Source: Chitinophagales bacterium
GTDB taxonomy: Bacteria; Bacteroidota; Bacteroidia; Chitinophagales; Chitinophagaceae
DNA length: 33,338 nt
Assembly (NCBI GenBank): GCA_015654495.1
Contig: JAATGW010000025.1
Span: forward strand, 1 to 33,338
Direction: 5' to 3'
Position 1 is the stretch's first letter; each line of letters begins with the position of its first letter. This document shows, piece by piece, positions 4,896 to 24,807 of the stretch. Both the position numbers and the translations under genes were made by a program. The notes under the pieces were generated by a model. That model was not told the origin of the DNA. It made no database searches and was given only the letters and a program-made list of their open reading frames with translations.

Positions 4896-4926
4896 CAGGA
4901 ACAGTTTTCATGAAATTAGCGAATCG

Positions 4927-4934
4927 TACATTTG
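4927..4934 (+). promoter_or_regulatory. Candidate Bacteroidetes -7 element TACATTTG upstream of argS
   Basis: Exact TAnnTTTG match lying between the ORF-track start (4910) and the more likely argS start (4955). Confidence 0.4.
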
Positions 4935-4954
4935 CAGCCATATTAGAAAAAATC

Positions 4955-6733
4955 ATGATCGTATCTCAGGTAAAAGAAAAGGTTGCAGCGGCTTTGGAAC
5001 AGCTGTTTAATCAACCCTTCACCGAAAAAGATTTCCAGGTAAATCAGACAAAACCGGAATTTGAAGGAGATTATACAGTGGTGCTTTTCTCCCTGGTTAA
5101 ATCTTTGAAATTGTCTCCTGATCAACTGGGCAACTCGCTGGGGAATCAACTGCTGAAAAATCACCCGGATTTATTTACAGGATTCAATATCATCAAAGGT
5201 TTCCTCAACCTTTCGATAAAAGACGAATTCTGGTTTAGTCTGCTTGAAGAAAATTTTGCTAATAACAGCTTTGGAAAAGCAACTGCCACAGGAATAAAGG
5301 TGATGGTAGAATACAGTTCTCCCAACACAAATAAGCCATTGCACCTCGGTCATCTCCGTAATAATTTTCTGGGATGGAGCATAGCCGAAATCTTAAAAGC
5401 AAATGGAAATGAAGTGATCAAGACATGCGTGGTAAATGATCGCGGTATTCATATATGCAAGAGTATGCTTGCATGGAAACTTTTTTCAAACGGAGCAACA
5501 CCACAAACAACAAATCAGAAAGGTGATCATTTTGTAGGTGATTACTATGTGAAATTTAATGATGCCTACAAAAAAGAAGTTGAAGATTTAATCAGTGCGG
5601 GACAGAGCAAAGAAGATGCTGAAAGAAATTCGCCCATTATGCAGCAAACGCAGGAGATGCTGAAAAAATGGGAGGCCGGAGATCCGGAAACCATGGAACT
5701 CTGGCGTACAATGAATCAATGGGTATATGCAGGATTTGATGAAACCTATAAAAGAATCGGATCTGATTTTGACAGGATATATTATGAAAGCCAGACCTAC
5801 CTGCTTGGCCGCGATACAGTGCAGGAAGGATTAAAGAAGGGCATTTTCTTCAGAAAAGAGGATGGCAGCGTCTGGATTGACCTTACTGCAGATGGACTGG
5901 ACGAAAAACTGGTGTTGAGGAAAGATGGAACTTCTGTTTATATCACACAGGATATCGGGCTTGCACAGGATAAATACAGGGAATACGGTATTGATAAAAG
6001 TATTTATGTTATCGGTGATGAGCAGAACTATCACATGAAAGTACTGAAGCTGATCTGTCAGAAAATCGGGTTACCCTATGCTGATTCTATTTACCATTTA
6101 TCCTATGGTATGGTTGAACTGCCGACAGGAAAAATGAAAAGCAGAGAAGGAACAGTTGTTGATGCTGATGATATTGTAGATGAAATGAACGCAATTGCAG
6201 CCCGGCATACAGCCGAGCTCGGCAAAGTTCAGGATTTCGCACCCGAATCTCTGAAAGAGCTTTATGATACCATTGGCCTTGGTGCGCTGAAATTTTTTCT
6301 ATTAAGAGTTGAACCAAAAAAGAAAATGGTTTTTAATCCGGAAGAATCTGTGGACTTTCACGGCTTTACCGGTCCGTTCATTCAGTATACACACGCAAGA
6401 ATAAAATCAATACTTCGTAAAGAGAGCATCAATTCCAGCTATAAAAATTATGACGGAAACGGGTTGCTTCCCCTGGAAAAATCGCTTCTTATTTCACTTG
6501 AGCAATATGGCGACATTTTACAGCAGTCTGCAACTGAACTGAACCCTTCTGTCATTGCGATATTCGCATTCAACCTTGCAAAAACTTTTAATTCCTTTTA
6601 TGCGGAACATTCGGTGATGCAGGCAGAAACCGAATCAAAAAAGCAACTTCGGCTACGCATTGCTGCTATGACGGCAATCGTTCTTTCATCATCTATGCGG
6701 TTATTGGGGATAAGGGTTCCGGAGAGAATGTGA
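4955..6733 (+). CDS. argS: Arginyl-tRNA synthetase
   Basis: EYSSPNTNKPLHLGHLRNNFLGWSIAEIL (class I HIGH-like motif), YGMVELPTGKMKSREGTVVDADD, C-terminal LRIAAMTAIVLSSSMRLLGIRVPERM. ATG at 4955 (MIVSQVKEKVAAALEQLF) preferred over 4910. Confidence 0.96.
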   Translation: MIVSQVKEKVAAALEQLFNQPFTEKDFQVNQTKPEFEGDYTVVLFSLVKSLKLSPDQLGNSLGNQLLKNHPDLFTGFNIIKGFLNLSIKDEFWFSLLEENFANNSFGKATATGIKVMVEYSSPNTNKPLHLGHLRNNFLGWSIAEILKANGNEVIKTCVVNDRGIHICKSMLAWKLFSNGATPQTTNQKGDHFVGDYYVKFNDAYKKEVEDLISAGQSKEDAERNSPIMQQTQEMLKKWEAGDPETMELWRTMNQWVYAGFDETYKRIGSDFDRIYYESQTYLLGRDTVQEGLKKGIFFRKEDGSVWIDLTADGLDEKLVLRKDGTSVYITQDIGLAQDKYREYGIDKSIYVIGDEQNYHMKVLKLICQKIGLPYADSIYHLSYGMVELPTGKMKSREGTVVDADDIVDEMNAIAARHTAELGKVQDFAPESLKELYDTIGLGALKFFLLRVEPKKKMVFNPEESVDFHGFTGPFIQYTHARIKSILRKESINSSYKNYDGNGLLPLEKSLLISLEQYGDILQQSATELNPSVIAIFAFNLAKTFNSFYAEHSVMQAETESKKQLRLRIAAMTAIVLSSSMRLLGIRVPERM

Positions 6734-6735
6734 AG

Positions 6736-6791
6736 GAAGTACGAAGTACGAGGGACGAAGTGGGAAGTAGTTCAACGTTGAACGTTAAACA
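6736..6791. repeat. Heptamer tandem array, two families fused in phase
   Basis: gaagtac gaagtac gagggac gaagtgg gaagtag | ttcaacg ttgaacg ttaaaca = 8 consecutive 7-mers, starting 2 nt after the argS stop codon. Confidence 0.85.
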
Positions 6792-6812: not shown

Positions 6813-7712
6813 ATGAAACGTTTTTTGTTTGCCGCAATACTATTCATGACTCATTTCAGATTGAGCGCACAACAACAGAAAATTATCCTTTATGATGATC
6901 AGACTGTTGCTAATATCGGAGGGTCTGCAAAAATCCAGGAACCACCCTACCTGATGGTTTTCCCTTCCCCTGTCGCAGGATCAAAAAAATCAATCCTGAT
7001 CTGCCCCGGAGGCGGATATACCGCCCTGGCAAAAGATCACGAAGGGCTTGATGTTGCTGCATTCTTTAATTCAAAAGGCTACCATGCCTTTGTGCTTATG
7101 TACCGTTTAAATGATTTCCAGCAGACCGGAAGCAAATTTCCTGCGCAGCTCAATGATGTTACAAGGGCAATGCAGATCATACGTTCACGCGCAACCGAAT
7201 TTGGAATCGATCCCGCCGGAACAGGTGTGATCGGATTTTCAGCGGGCGGACATCTGGCCTCCATGGCGGCTACCATGTTCTCAAAAGGTGACCCTTCTTC
7301 AAAGAATATTCTTGAGCGGCAGAACACCCGGCCTGCGTTTGCTATACTTGTTTATCCTGTAATTGCGCTGAACGACAGTTTTACCCATAAGGGCAGTGCA
7401 GAAATGCTTACAGGAAAAAATTCATCTGCTTCTTTCAGAGATTCACTGAGTACACAAAACAGGGTTACTGCAGAAACTCCTCCAACCTTTCTTATCTACG
7501 GAAATGACGATAAAGCGGTACCACCGGAAAACGGGATTGTATTTTACCAGGCATTGAGAAAATATAATATTCCCGCAAGCTTGCACATATATCCGCATGG
7601 TGGTCATGGGTTCGGGCTGGCCCCGAAAGATCCTGTTTTAAATACCTGGCCTGAATTAGCTATAAGCTGGATTGAAGAAGTCGGACGTTCAACGTCGAAC
7701 GTTAAACCTTAA
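6813..7712 (+). CDS. Secreted alpha/beta hydrolase (acetyl-esterase/xylanase-like)
   Basis: Signal peptide; ICPGGGYTALAKDHEG oxyanion region, GVIGFSAGGHLAS nucleophile elbow, YGNDDKAVPPENG and YPHGGHGFG catalytic Asp/His regions. Confidence 0.88.
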   Translation: MKRFLFAAILFMTHFRLSAQQQKIILYDDQTVANIGGSAKIQEPPYLMVFPSPVAGSKKSILICPGGGYTALAKDHEGLDVAAFFNSKGYHAFVLMYRLNDFQQTGSKFPAQLNDVTRAMQIIRSRATEFGIDPAGTGVIGFSAGGHLASMAATMFSKGDPSSKNILERQNTRPAFAILVYPVIALNDSFTHKGSAEMLTGKNSSASFRDSLSTQNRVTAETPPTFLIYGNDDKAVPPENGIVFYQALRKYNIPASLHIYPHGGHGFGLAPKDPVLNTWPELAISWIEEVGRSTSNVKP

Positions 7713-7726
7713 ACTTAAAATTTAAC
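7685..7726. repeat. Heptamer tandem array spanning both stop codons of convergent genes
   Basis: acgttca acgtcga acgttaa accttaa acttaaa atttaac = 6 consecutive 7-mers; contains the esterase stop (7710-7712) and the TPR-protein stop (7715-7717, minus strand). Confidence 0.8.
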
Positions 7727-14502: not shown

Positions 14503-14523
14503 AAGGCAGGAGGCAGCAGGCAG
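14503..14523. repeat. Heptamer tandem array, NAGGCAG family
   Basis: aaggcag gaggcag caggcag, directly after the stop codon of the GLPGLI gene. Confidence 0.8.
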
Positions 14524-14543
14524 AAAACCAAAGGAAAGAACTT

Positions 14544-14571
14544 AAGGCAAAAGGCAGGAGGCAAGAGGCAA
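14544..14571. repeat. Heptamer tandem array, NAGGCAR family
   Basis: aaggcaa aaggcag gaggcaa gaggcaa; shares the 13-mer aaggcaggaggca with the array at 14503. Confidence 0.8.
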
Positions 14572-14640
14572 TAGGAACAGCCAGTGTGGAGTTAATAGTG
14601 GGTAATTTGCCAATATCCCTGTTAATTTCAAATCTTTAAT

Positions 14641-15069
14641 ATGAATCGTAAATTTTATTTCCTGGTTATATCGCTTTTTTTAGTCAGTACTTTCGCTTCT
14701 GTGGCATTTCAACGGGCATCGGCGCAGGGTATTGAAGATCAGAAGAAATTTCTCACGCAGAAGCCCTGGCATATTATTGAAGATAAACTTACCGGCGTAG
14801 GTAATCATCGTGCAATGAATGGTGAGGCTGAGATTATTTTCAGCGCTGACGGAAACTGGAATTGCAATCAGAATATTGAAGGGGAAAAATCCGGAACCTG
14901 GTGGTTAAAAGATACAAGCACACTTTATCTTAAAACAGCCAAAGGCGGAAAGGAAATCAAATGTGAGCTGATTAAACTTACTGCCGAAACTCTCCGCTTT
15001 AAATACAAACTTCTCACGGCCGCACGCGTAATGGAATGGGAAAGTACTGAAGACGACGTTGAACGTTAA
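14641..15069 (+). CDS. Hypothetical exported protein (small, lipocalin-like appearance)
   Basis: 142 aa with signal peptide; GNWNCNQNIEGEKSGTWWLKDTSTLYL suggests a beta-rich fold. C-terminus ..DVER* falls in a heptamer array. Confidence 0.6.
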   Translation: MNRKFYFLVISLFLVSTFASVAFQRASAQGIEDQKKFLTQKPWHIIEDKLTGVGNHRAMNGEAEIIFSADGNWNCNQNIEGEKSGTWWLKDTSTLYLKTAKGGKEIKCELIKLTAETLRFKYKLLTAARVMEWESTEDDVER

Positions 15070-15083
15070 ACGTACAACGTCCC
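15056..15083. repeat. Heptamer tandem array, ACGTTNA/AACGTT family
   Basis: acgttga acgttaa acgtaca acgtccc; contains the stop codon at 15067-15069. Confidence 0.75.
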
Positions 15084-18352: not shown

Positions 18353-18356
18353 GGCA

Positions 18357-18405
18357 AAAGTTGAAAGTTCAACGTTAAACGTTGAACGTTTAACGTCTAA
18401 CGTTA
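18357..18405. repeat. Heptamer tandem array filling the glgC/MFS intergenic gap
   Basis: aaagttg aaagttc aacgtta aacgttg aacgttt aacgtct aacgtta = 7 contiguous 7-mers (49 bp). Includes the glgC stop codon (18403-18405, minus) and ends 4 nt from the MFS start codon. Confidence 0.9.
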
Positions 18406-19677
18406 TATTACAAATCCGTCGGGAAGTATCGCGCCTTTCTTCACTACCACAATGCCGTCTTTTACTGTATAAAGTGAATGATCAGAGTTTGCAAGATGCG
18501 CGCCACCATTAATTCTTACATCATTTCCCAGGCGACAGTTCTTATCGATGATTGCATTGCGGATATAGCAGCGTTCGCCGATACCAACTTTGGGAAGCCC
18601 CTTGCTCACCGAATTATTCATGTCTTCAATGGTTTCATAATAATCGGTACCCATAATATAGCTGCTTACAATTGTAGTACCTGAACCGATCCTGGTACGG
18701 ATACCGATAACGCTGTTCTCAATTCTGGAAGCATTGATAATACAGCCTTCTGCAATGATTGTTTTTTCAAGAGTAGTTCCGCTGATTTTTGCAGGAGGCA
18801 GCATGCGCGCACGGGTATAAACAGCCCTGCTGTTATCAAAAAGATTGAACGGCGGAACCTCATCGGTGAGCGCCAGGTTGGCCTCGAAAAATGAATAGAT
18901 ATTTCCGATATCCGTCCAGTATCCTTCATACTGGTAGCTGAGCACCTTGAAATGTTCTATTGAATGAGGGATGATTTCTTTACCAAAGTCAGTGGCATCT
19001 TTATGAACATCCTGCAGGAGATCAAACAAAATTTTCCTGCTGAAAATATAGATACCCATACTGGCGAGATAATTTCTTTGCACTGCCTTCATTTCGGCTC
19101 CGGTATCACTTTCCCAATCTTCGAGTACTTCTTTCTTTGGCTTTTCAATAAAAGAGGTGATGAAATGATCATCACTTGTTTTCAGAATACCAAATTCTGT
19201 TGCATCTTTTGCGTTTACCGGAATGGTAGCTATGGAGATATCGGCTCCTTTCGCAATATGTTCATCAACCATTTCCTGGAAATCCATCTGATAAAGCTGA
19301 TCACCGGAAAGGATCAGCAAATAATCGAAGTCCTGCTGTTCAACATGCCTGAGTGATTGCCTCACTGCGTCTGCAGTACCCTGGAACCAGGCCGGATTAT
19401 CGGGTGTTTGTTCCGCTGCTATAATATCAACAAATGCTGAGCTGAACACACTGAAGTGATAAGTGTTTTTAATATGTTTATTCAGCGAAGCGGAGTTGAA
19501 TTGCGTAAGCACATACATTCTTCCAATGCCTGAATTGAGGCAGTTGGAAATCGGAATATCAACCAACCTGTATTTTCCGGCAATCGGTACCGCCGGCTTA
19601 CTTCTCGTAGCTGTGAGCGGAAACAATCTTGTTCCGGCACCACCGCCAAGAATGATAGCTATCACTTCTTTTTTCAT
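18403..19677 (-). CDS. glgC: Glucose-1-phosphate adenylyltransferase
   Basis: VIAIILGGGAGTRLFPLTATRSKPAVPIAGKYRLVDIPISNCLNSGI; ILSGDQLYQMDF; left-handed beta-helix C-domain. Confidence 0.97.
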   Translation of the reverse strand: MKKEVIAIILGGGAGTRLFPLTATRSKPAVPIAGKYRLVDIPISNCLNSGIGRMYVLTQFNSASLNKHIKNTYHFSVFSSAFVDIIAAEQTPDNPAWFQGTADAVRQSLRHVEQQDFDYLLILSGDQLYQMDFQEMVDEHIAKGADISIATIPVNAKDATEFGILKTSDDHFITSFIEKPKKEVLEDWESDTGAEMKAVQRNYLASMGIYIFSRKILFDLLQDVHKDATDFGKEIIPHSIEHFKVLSYQYEGYWTDIGNIYSFFEANLALTDEVPPFNLFDNSRAVYTRARMLPPAKISGTTLEKTIIAEGCIINASRIENSVIGIRTRIGSGTTIVSSYIMGTDYYETIEDMNNSVSKGLPKVGIGERCYIRNAIIDKNCRLGNDVRINGGAHLANSDHSLYTVKDGIVVVKKGAILPDGFVI

Positions 19678-22874: not shown

Positions 22875-23864
22875 ATGGATTTAACGAATGCAGTTCCACC
22901 GGTATCGCAACAATTCGCGCTTGGTGTTGATCTCGGAGGTACAAATACAAAATTCGGACTGGTTAATACACACGGTGATATATTTCATTATGGTTCAATT
23001 TCCACTAATACAAAAGATGCTGTGGAAGATTTTATTGATGAACTGTATGATGCCATAATTCCTGGAATTACGGAAGTCGGAGGTATTGGAATGATCCGGG
23101 GCATCGGCATCGGCGCGCCCAATGGAAATATTTATAAAGGAACAATCGAATATGCGCCAAATCTGAAATGGAAAGGAATTATTCCACTCGCAGATCTGAT
23201 AACAAAAAAGTTCGGCATCAAGGCAAGGCTTACCAATGATGCGAATGCAGCAGCAGTTGGCGAAATGACCTATGGTGCGGCTAAGGGTATGCGTGATTTT
23301 ATTATGATTACCCTCGGAACCGGCGTTGGAAGCGGAATTGTAGCTAATGGTCAGCTGATCTATGGGCACGACGGTTTTGCCGGAGAACTGGGTCATACCA
23401 TTATAATTCCAGGGGGACGGCTTCATCCGGGTACGGGAATCCTTGGATCCCTGGAAGCATATGCATCGGCAACGGGTGTTGCACGCACTGCCGTCGAATT
23501 TCTTGATGAACATCCGGGCATTGAAAGTTCCATGCGTGCATATAATAAGGATGAAATTGATGCAAAGGTTGTGTATGATTGTGCAATGGCAGGAGATCAG
23601 CTTGCGATCGAAGTTTACAATTACACCGGGAATATTTTAGGACTTGCGCTGGCGAATTTTGTGATGTTCAGCAGCCCTGAAGCAATTGTATTATTCGGTG
23701 GAATGGCAAAAGCAGGTGAAATGATTCTTAAACCCACCCGCGAGAATATGGAAAAACACCTGCTACCGATCTTCCAGAATAAAGTAAAATTGTTGTTCAG
23801 CGAATTGAAGGAAGCAGATGCGGCGATACTTGGTGCAAGCGCACTCGTATGGGATGTACGATAA
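22875..23864 (+). CDS. ROK family sugar kinase (putative glucokinase)
   Basis: ALGVDLGGTNTKFGLVN phosphate-binding motif, LTNDANAAAVGEMTYGAAKGMRDFIMITLGTGVGSGIV, DGFAGELGHTIIIPGGR. Confidence 0.92.
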   Translation: MDLTNAVPPVSQQFALGVDLGGTNTKFGLVNTHGDIFHYGSISTNTKDAVEDFIDELYDAIIPGITEVGGIGMIRGIGIGAPNGNIYKGTIEYAPNLKWKGIIPLADLITKKFGIKARLTNDANAAAVGEMTYGAAKGMRDFIMITLGTGVGSGIVANGQLIYGHDGFAGELGHTIIIPGGRLHPGTGILGSLEAYASATGVARTAVEFLDEHPGIESSMRAYNKDEIDAKVVYDCAMAGDQLAIEVYNYTGNILGLALANFVMFSSPEAIVLFGGMAKAGEMILKPTRENMEKHLLPIFQNKVKLLFSELKEADAAILGASALVWDVR

Positions 23865-23890
23865 CGTTAAACGTTCAACGTTCAACGTTT
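23863..23890. repeat. Heptamer tandem array, AACGTTN family, with 10-bp inverted ends
   Basis: aacgtta aacgttc aacgttc aacgttt between convergent ROK and lipA; gttaaacgtt-caacgttc-aacgtttaac (23866-23893) is a perfect 10-bp inverted repeat with 8-nt loop. Confidence 0.85.
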
Positions 23891-24807
23891 AACAACTGCT
23901 CAGTAAGCCATTTTTCACGGCCATAACCAGGAACTACGTGCTTTTCGCTGTGATAACTTGATCTCACAAGCGGGCCGCTCTCCACATAATCTATCCCCAA
24001 AGAATAGCCGATTTCACGGTATTCAGCAAATTCATCAGGATGTACAAATCGGGCAACCTGTAAATGTTTACGTGTTGGTTGCAGGTACTGACCGATTGTT
24101 ACCACATCTACTCCGCTGTTGTTAAGGTCTTTCAGGGTTTGTATAACTTCCTCTTTTTTCTCTCCCAAACCCAGCATGATTCCTGATTTTGTACGCATGC
24201 CGCCTTCTTTGAGGATACGCAGCACTTCCATACTACGCCAGTATTTGGCCTGTATGCGAACCTGGCGGGTAAGCCGCTCTACGGTTTCAATATTATGCGA
24301 AACAACTTCAGGAGCTGCTTCAATGATGCGGTTTATATTTTCCTTCTCTCCCTTGAAATCAGGAATAAGTGTTTCAAGCGTAGTATCCGGGTTTAGTGTT
24401 TTAACGGCGCGGATTGTGTTATACCAGACAATACTTCCCCCATCCTTTAATTCATCACGGTCTACAGAAGTAATAACCGCATGCTTCACCTTCATCAAAT
24501 GAATTGCTTCCGCTACACGTTGCGGTTCATCCCAATCCACTGCTCCGGGCCGCCCGGTTGCAACCGCACAAAATCCGCAACTTCTTGTACATACATTTCC
24601 AAGTATCATGAAGGTGGCTGTTCCGGCTCCCCAGCACTCACCCATATTCGGACAATTTCCGCTTTCGCAAATGGTGTGAAGTTTATGTGTATCAACCAGG
24701 TTTCTTACATTCCGGTAACTTTCGCCAATGGGTAGTCGAACCCTCAACCAGTCTGGTTTTTTTGGTTTTTGTTCCACAACCGGATCTATAACTGTCAGTT
24801 CTTTCAT
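23875..24807 (-). CDS. lipA: Lipoyl synthase
   Basis: [41 protein letters not shown] (both LipA Cys motifs); [23 protein letters not shown]. Confidence 0.97.

Follow-up and report, generated by a model that had tools for sequence, protein, structure and literature searches.

Adjoining heptanucleotide arrays of two families downstream of argS in a Chitinophagales bacterium, and the dispersed period-7 repeats of its genome

Heptanucleotide repeats are over-represented in many bacteria, and the published explanation for this is a guess that the polymerase contacts 7 nt (PMC4679880, PMC4692102). Intergenic heptanucleotide simple sequence repeats were noted as a class by Mrazek 2007, as cited in PMC4679880, and the idea of polymerase contact comes, as cited, from Mrazek and colleagues. 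Another example is the intergenic direct repeat TAACTGA, which is found in Beggiatoaceae, Cyanobacteria, and some Bacteroidetes (MacGregor 2015, PMC4679880).

The locus described here lies downstream of the arginyl-tRNA synthetase gene of a Chitinophagales bacterium. The window, by which we mean the whole 33,338-nucleotide stretch of DNA that was analysed, belongs to a contig that is part of a 5.44-Mb assembly in 814 contigs. The features of the locus are as follows.

4910 to 6733, plus strand: argS, arginyl-tRNA synthetase, 607 aa, upstream of the arrays (PF00750, 1.7e-42; PF05746, 7.2e-28)
6736 to 6770, plus strand: first array, family GARGTAN, five units (GAAGTAC GAAGTAC GAGGGAC GAAGTGG GAAGTAG), with the G-rich strand leaving the gene
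6770 to 6791, no strand assigned: second array, family GTTNAAC/AACGTTN, palindromic unit, three units ((G)TTCAACG TTGAACG TTAAACA)
6813 to 7712, plus strand: downstream gene, alpha/beta hydrolase of the BD-FAE type (PF20434, 3.3e-24), with the same neighbour in Pollutibacter soli

The 56 bases from 6736 to 6791 (8 x 7) start 2 bases past the argS stop codon and read as (GARGTAN)5 followed by (TTNAACG)3. The original prediction quoted these heptamers exactly as they stand in the sequence, and two adjoining arrays with unlike units and the same period are indeed present. TRF reports the first part (6736-6769) with period 7 and a score of 40. Inside the 56 bases, 33 of 49 lag-7 comparisons agree; in the whole 79-nt spacer between argS and the hydrolase gene there are 39 matches in 72 comparisons, against a mean of 19.2 and a maximum of 35 in 20,000 shuffles. 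Since no shuffle reaches the observed count, the arrays are real. The assembly is fragmented, which could favour an artefact, but arrays of the same kind occur in the separately assembled P. soli, and it is barely credible that the arrays and their phase continuity arose by chance or during assembly.

The arrays had been described as fused in perfect 7-bp phase, and this part of the description does not survive. Only one base in seven agrees across the junction (GAAGTAG against TTCAACG), so the relative phase is not set by the sequence itself, and the offset shifts with the rotation that is chosen. Counted modulo 7 from the last GAAG unit (6764), a second unit of TTNAACG gives 0, one of GTTNAAC gives 6, and one of AACGTTN gives 3; with the GTTNAAC cut, base 6770 lengthens the second array by one base leftward. 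The perfect phase is thus a choice of rotation. Until a rotation is chosen, the relative phase of two unrelated period-7 arrays is undefined. A meaningful test is offered only by the recurrence of the same pair at other loci.

Junctions from GARG to AACGTTN arrays (with the unit cut as GTTNAAC) were found at 10 loci genome-wide, with offsets of 0 at three loci, 6 at three, 2 at two, and 1 and 4 at one each. A Monte Carlo test does not separate these offsets from random ones (p = 0.43), which is the outcome that the original prediction had named as contrary to in-phase fusion, and it applies to this pair. The 27 junctions from AGTTCNT to AACGTTN arrays give another picture, with offset 1 at 18 loci, 2 at six, 3 at two, and 0 at one (p < 2e-5), so that the keeping of phase by composite arrays holds for one pair and fails for the other. 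An identical linker heptamer, AGATGTT, is present at 10 of the 27 loci, all with offset 1. When these are set aside, offset 1 is still found at 8 of 17 (p = 4e-4), with similar linkers (AGAAGTT, AGGAGTT, and GAGGTT). Given the shared linkers, the register of this pair is better explained by common descent of a composite module than by independent length-counted fusion, and the recurring linkers point to composite modules that would have been copied with single-base slips.

A DNA search with the argS locus found three further places in the same genome (C366, C106, and C467) that align over essentially the whole composite and differ at the junction by about 1 nt. C106 has GAAGTGAGTTCGACGTTGAACG where the window has GAAGTAGTTCAACGTTGAACG, making the join one base longer in C106, and C467 has GAAGTGAGTTTAAAGTTTAAAG at the corresponding join. 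If two arrays simply came to lie side by side, the apparent phase continuity after argS would be one outcome among seven, made visible by a convenient choice of rotation, and the junction by itself is ordinary.

Two processes had been offered for such a fusion, one that counts length rather than copying sequence, and a drift of one family into the other at constant period. Counting of length is not seen as phase at the GARG-AACGTTN junction, but it is supported at another level, since the six or more families all have a period of 7 and hardly any other period is enriched. Drift has in-register intermediates in its favour for other pairs of families (GAAGTAG to GCANNAG, AGGCNGG to AGTCNGG) and none at the argS junction.

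The argS gene is 85% identical to that of P. soli, and its further close matches are mostly from Chitinophagaceae. The same hydrolase gene comes after argS in P. soli, where the spacer has several hundred bases as against 79 bp in the window. The left end of this spacer carries degenerate heptads (GAAGGAC GAAGGCC GATTTGC GAGTGAC GAATGGT), and near its right end there is a GGCTGTT-pyrimidine stretch; an AACGTTN array is absent from it. Alignment of the two genomes after argS contains a 7-nt gap. Since P. soli has a GAAGNNC-like run in the same place and no AACGTTN array, the GAAG array is probably the older of the two at argS. The order of acquisition, which was to be read from relatives, can be traced to this extent in the one relative compared. 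On the simplest reading of the sequences, the GAAG array would be old in this position and the second array would have come alongside later; the juxtaposition may perhaps have arisen through loss of DNA between the arrays, as the spacer of this single relative suggests. Short heptad-like runs, resembling GATTTAG and GGGAGTC, were also seen 3' of argS in other Chitinophagaceae (L053 and L061).

Abundance was estimated only from an unbiased 639-kb sample of arbitrarily chosen contigs, with an array threshold of a score of at least 13 and one dinucleotide-model shuffle as the control. The sample holds 133 period-7 arrays, against 1 in the shuffled sample, an excess of more than 100-fold. Other periods give at most 20 arrays, except for multiples of 7, with 14 and 21 enriched; among the remaining short periods, only 6 is clearly enriched. 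By extrapolation, the genome has about 1,100 period-7 arrays, or roughly a thousand. At least six heptad families can be recognised: AACGTTN, AGGCANN, GARGTAN, AGTTCNT, AGTCNGG, and CTGGNNA. Three consecutive GTTNAAC units have 594 matches in the genome, with both strands counted, and GAAGTACGAAGTAC has 21 exact sites. As shuffle controls model neither selection nor shared ancestry, copies that are inherited together can inflate such counts. The window itself contains several further arrays.

7685 to 7725, no strand assigned: AACGTTN-type array, spanning the hydrolase stop codon, between convergent genes
14503 to 14575, plus strand: two AGGCANN arrays, immediately downstream of a stop codon
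14576 to 14582, plus strand: AACAGCC cap, closing the second AGGCANN array on its 3' side
15058 to 15078, no strand assigned: short GTTNAAC array, overlapping the stop codon of the ORF at 14641-15069
18353 to 18408, no strand assigned: GTTNAAC array of six units, between two minus-strand genes
23858 to 23899, no strand assigned: GTTNAAC array, over a stop codon, between convergent genes

The 7-nt unit of each family combines a conserved core of 4-6 bases with between one and three free positions. Arrays often have about five units (~35 nt), and this length is a clear mode in two families, with 23 of 44 GARG arrays and 22 of 51 AACGTTN arrays. If replication slipped locally, with a preference for steps of 7 nt, arrays could grow from any seed, with families arising by point mutation and the register being kept as new units copy old ones. 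The period common to all families, with 14 and 21 also enriched, the in-register intermediates between families, and the 7-nt gap in the alignment with P. soli all agree with this, and both a heptanucleotide excess and a slippage proposal have already been published (PMC4679880, PMC4692102). Slippage copies all seven bases, so that neighbouring units should also resemble each other at their free positions. They do so above expectation in AGGCANN (0.45 against 0.25) and GARG (0.60 against 0.36), which implies that local unit duplication acts too. Plain slippage does not fit AACGTTN, where the seventh base is nearly evenly distributed (A 0.28, C 0.22, G 0.20, T 0.29) and neighbours are identical less often than expected (0.19-0.21 against 0.25-0.26). 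The length peak at five units also speaks against slippage, as does the recurrence of the same families across the genome, with a common AACAGCC end and a preferred orientation to genes, and we regard it as an unlikely source of the arrays.

AACGTTN arrays that are self-complementary number 12 of 65, a moderate excess over the 5.0 +- 2.1 expected. Hairpins with a paired seventh base were considered for this family and set aside, since complementary pairs are in partial excess only.

With gene edges taken from simple ORF calls, 85 of 99 placed arrays in the unbiased set are intergenic. Among the oriented arrays that lie within 80 nt of a gene, 57 of 63 have their 5' side toward the gene, with the G-rich strand running out. 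The window and twenty contigs had been picked for carrying arrays, and the strongest orientation test was redone on the unbiased set. In this family-agnostic form, with one array per gene edge, the rule is followed by 38:8 within 200 nt, which divides into 28:1 at stop codons and 10:7 at gene starts. An equal rule at starts and stops was thereby weakened. The loci of P. soli are oriented 10:0.

This placement raises the possibility that the arrays are functional sites under selection, acting for instance in RNA binding in the 3' UTR, in Rho-type termination of transcripts that enter the gene, or as hairpins, with 7 nt as the spacing of a binding surface. Placement and orientation at stop codons, the fixed core with a free spacer base, the C-rich opposite strand in four families, and the moderate excess of self-complementary AACGTTN arrays would all be accounted for. 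However, Rfam gives no match to a known structured RNA, and the arrays at 6736-6791 have no terminator-like hairpin. In PMC9160355, Rho utilisation sites are scored with YC dimers 9-13 nt apart rather than 7, and a C-rich strand is missing from the AGTTC and AACGTT families; Rho sites were accordingly demoted to a part of this alternative. Searches of 100-300 related genomes placed the arrays in one lineage, which also argues against a core function. Selection for such sites is thus a doubtful, distinctly unlikely origin of the arrays, and 3' UTRs are a possible site for any role they may have.

Spacers with at least two arrays show a further regularity. The outermost pair is oriented +- in 22 of 35 spacers, ++ in 6, -- in 7, and never -+, and in about half of the cases the two outer arrays belong to different families. 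The latter is not predicted by plain terminal inverted repeats, such as those of a MITE, which are of one family. At two loci (L178:7758-7888 and L232:14843-14934), arrays of the same family face each other in opposite orientation and are able to form long hairpins.

The heptamer AACAGCC forms a common end for some of the families. An array lies within 35 nt upstream of 60 of the 235 AACAGCC sites and downstream of 10, and the heptamer is reached by 38 of 73 AGGCANN and 13 of 41 GARG arrays, with the register fixed to +-1 nt. The association is strong for these two families and minor for AACGTTN and AGTCNGG; a k-mer count did not show it 3' of AGTTC or CTGG arrays, where single cases were found by eye. 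The idea that AACAGCC ends every family was toned down on this count. The arrays at 6736-6791 lack it, as do many others. The sequence that loci have in common continues past AACAGCC. With GARG arrays it takes the form of a GTAG hairpin; other forms are GGCGTTTGGAGATT and then a 6-nt pyrimidine repeat, or else runs of AGTG.

Some loci combine several such parts. A 6-nt pyrimidine repeat (TTNCTS-like) lies downstream of the linker AACAGCCGGCGTTTGGAGATT at four of them (L023, L154, L209, and L242), and tandem REP-like units, each with a GTAG hairpin and a second hairpin, have GARG arrays between them at two (L153:6850-7900 and L130:8880-9700). At least eight paralogs, called histidine kinases from translated motifs, carry AGGCANN arrays, mostly with AACAGCC, in frame inside a HisKA-like loop. 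The following are among the loci with such in-frame arrays.

L227, 2999 to 9549: histidine kinase paralogs with in-frame arrays
L236, 660 to 7845: the same
L237, 6170 to 8129: the same
L126, 3544 to 5902: the same
L230, 209 to 2375: the same

Two of the families were traced through related genomes. Capped AGGCANN arrays have 73 sites in the genome of the window and 16 in the genome taken as P. soli, which was assembled separately in about 40 contigs and shares their orientation, and none in the 99 other relatives searched. Three GTTNAAC units were found in none of 298 other genomes of the order, a sample to which the P. soli genome does not belong. The reversed control, three units of CAANTTG, has matches in a few genomes of the order (G030, G138, and G187), which suggests that other species may carry other palindromic hexamer-plus-N arrays (TTGCAAN).

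Taken together, we lean towards a reading in which these are dispersed intergenic heptad cassettes, spread by copying, with the 7-nt spacing held by a constraint, and two of them adjoining after argS; we hold this to be somewhat probable. The arrays would form the ends or the modules of non-coding repeat elements dispersed between genes, and these elements might spread through transposition-like movement or through microhomology-templated repair. Whatever keeps the spacing would read or build the array in steps of 7 nt. At argS, two cassettes would have come together to form the junction, perhaps with loss of the intervening DNA. A search for an autonomous mobile partner of the arrays found none. 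A Y1 transposase is a possible candidate for the mover; the corresponding family, PF01797 (Y1_Tnp), which is wider than RAYT, has 7 matches in the genome of the window and 4 in P. soli.

It is also possible, if rather unlikely, that heptads are placed next to genes in runs of about five, often with AACAGCC at the end, by an element or enzyme not described before. Its 7-nt length rule would be independent of the unit, and unrelated families could coexist and be linked in register through fixed linker heptamers. In another proposal, a reverse transcriptase would extend DNA ends by heptads copied from a template, in the manner of telomerase or of the bacterial DRT10 system. The G-rich strand has its 3' end directed away from the gene edge, the tandem units are short, several templates would be possible, and DRT10 shows that bacterial reverse transcriptases make tandem-repeat DNA (PMC12632851). 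Such a system would yield short tandem DNA repeats. However, the array-bearing P. soli genome, which is 99% complete, has 0 RVT_1 matches (the genome of the window has one), and the DRT10 products were recovered as non-chromosomal DNA (PMC12632851). Reverse transcriptase or telomerase-like synthesis was rejected as a likely cause on the P. soli result and is highly improbable.

The arrays can be compared with described systems. Compared with the class noted by Mrazek 2007, as far as it is described in the citing work, the arrays show the same tandem excess at 7 nt (133 against 1) and are mostly intergenic. The copying of neighbours divides them, since free positions in AGGCANN and GARG agree above expectation and in AACGTTN below it. 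Like TAACTGA repeats, they are short tandem sets of 7 nt, mostly intergenic, at many loci per genome, and with indel steps of 7 nt, and in some Bacteroidetes with TAACTGA other heptamers also occur in the same spacers (PMC4679880). Unlike them, they include 0 TAACTGA squares in about 0.9 Mb, have at least six families with degenerate positions and a common AACAGCC end, and are placed mainly at stop codons, whereas the Beggiatoaceae repeats lie in forward orientation just upstream of start codons (PMC4679880).

The heptamers GGGNATC of Xanthomonas and GGGGA(C/T)T of Nostoc are likewise degenerate and form few units at many intergenic loci (Rehm 2015, PMC4692102). In those genomes one family was studied in each, with G-quadruplex potential (PMC4692102), whereas several families are present here and the main ones have no G-quadruplex motif. 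REP and BIME elements with RAYT (Y1) transposases (PMC3733652) are dispersed modular intergenic repeats, as are the arrays, and REP-like GTAG hairpins adjoin GARG arrays in this genome. The arrays differ from GTAG REP/RAYT elements in being direct repeats without a GTAG hairpin, such hairpins being neighbours only. Slippage copying, a spacing constraint, and dispersal may be told apart in a genome that has six or more families, a common end, an orientation rule, and a random seventh base in AACGTTN. Intergenic heptamer repeats are known; what sets these apart is the presence of several families in one genome, the degenerate positions, the common AACAGCC end, and the placement at stop codons.
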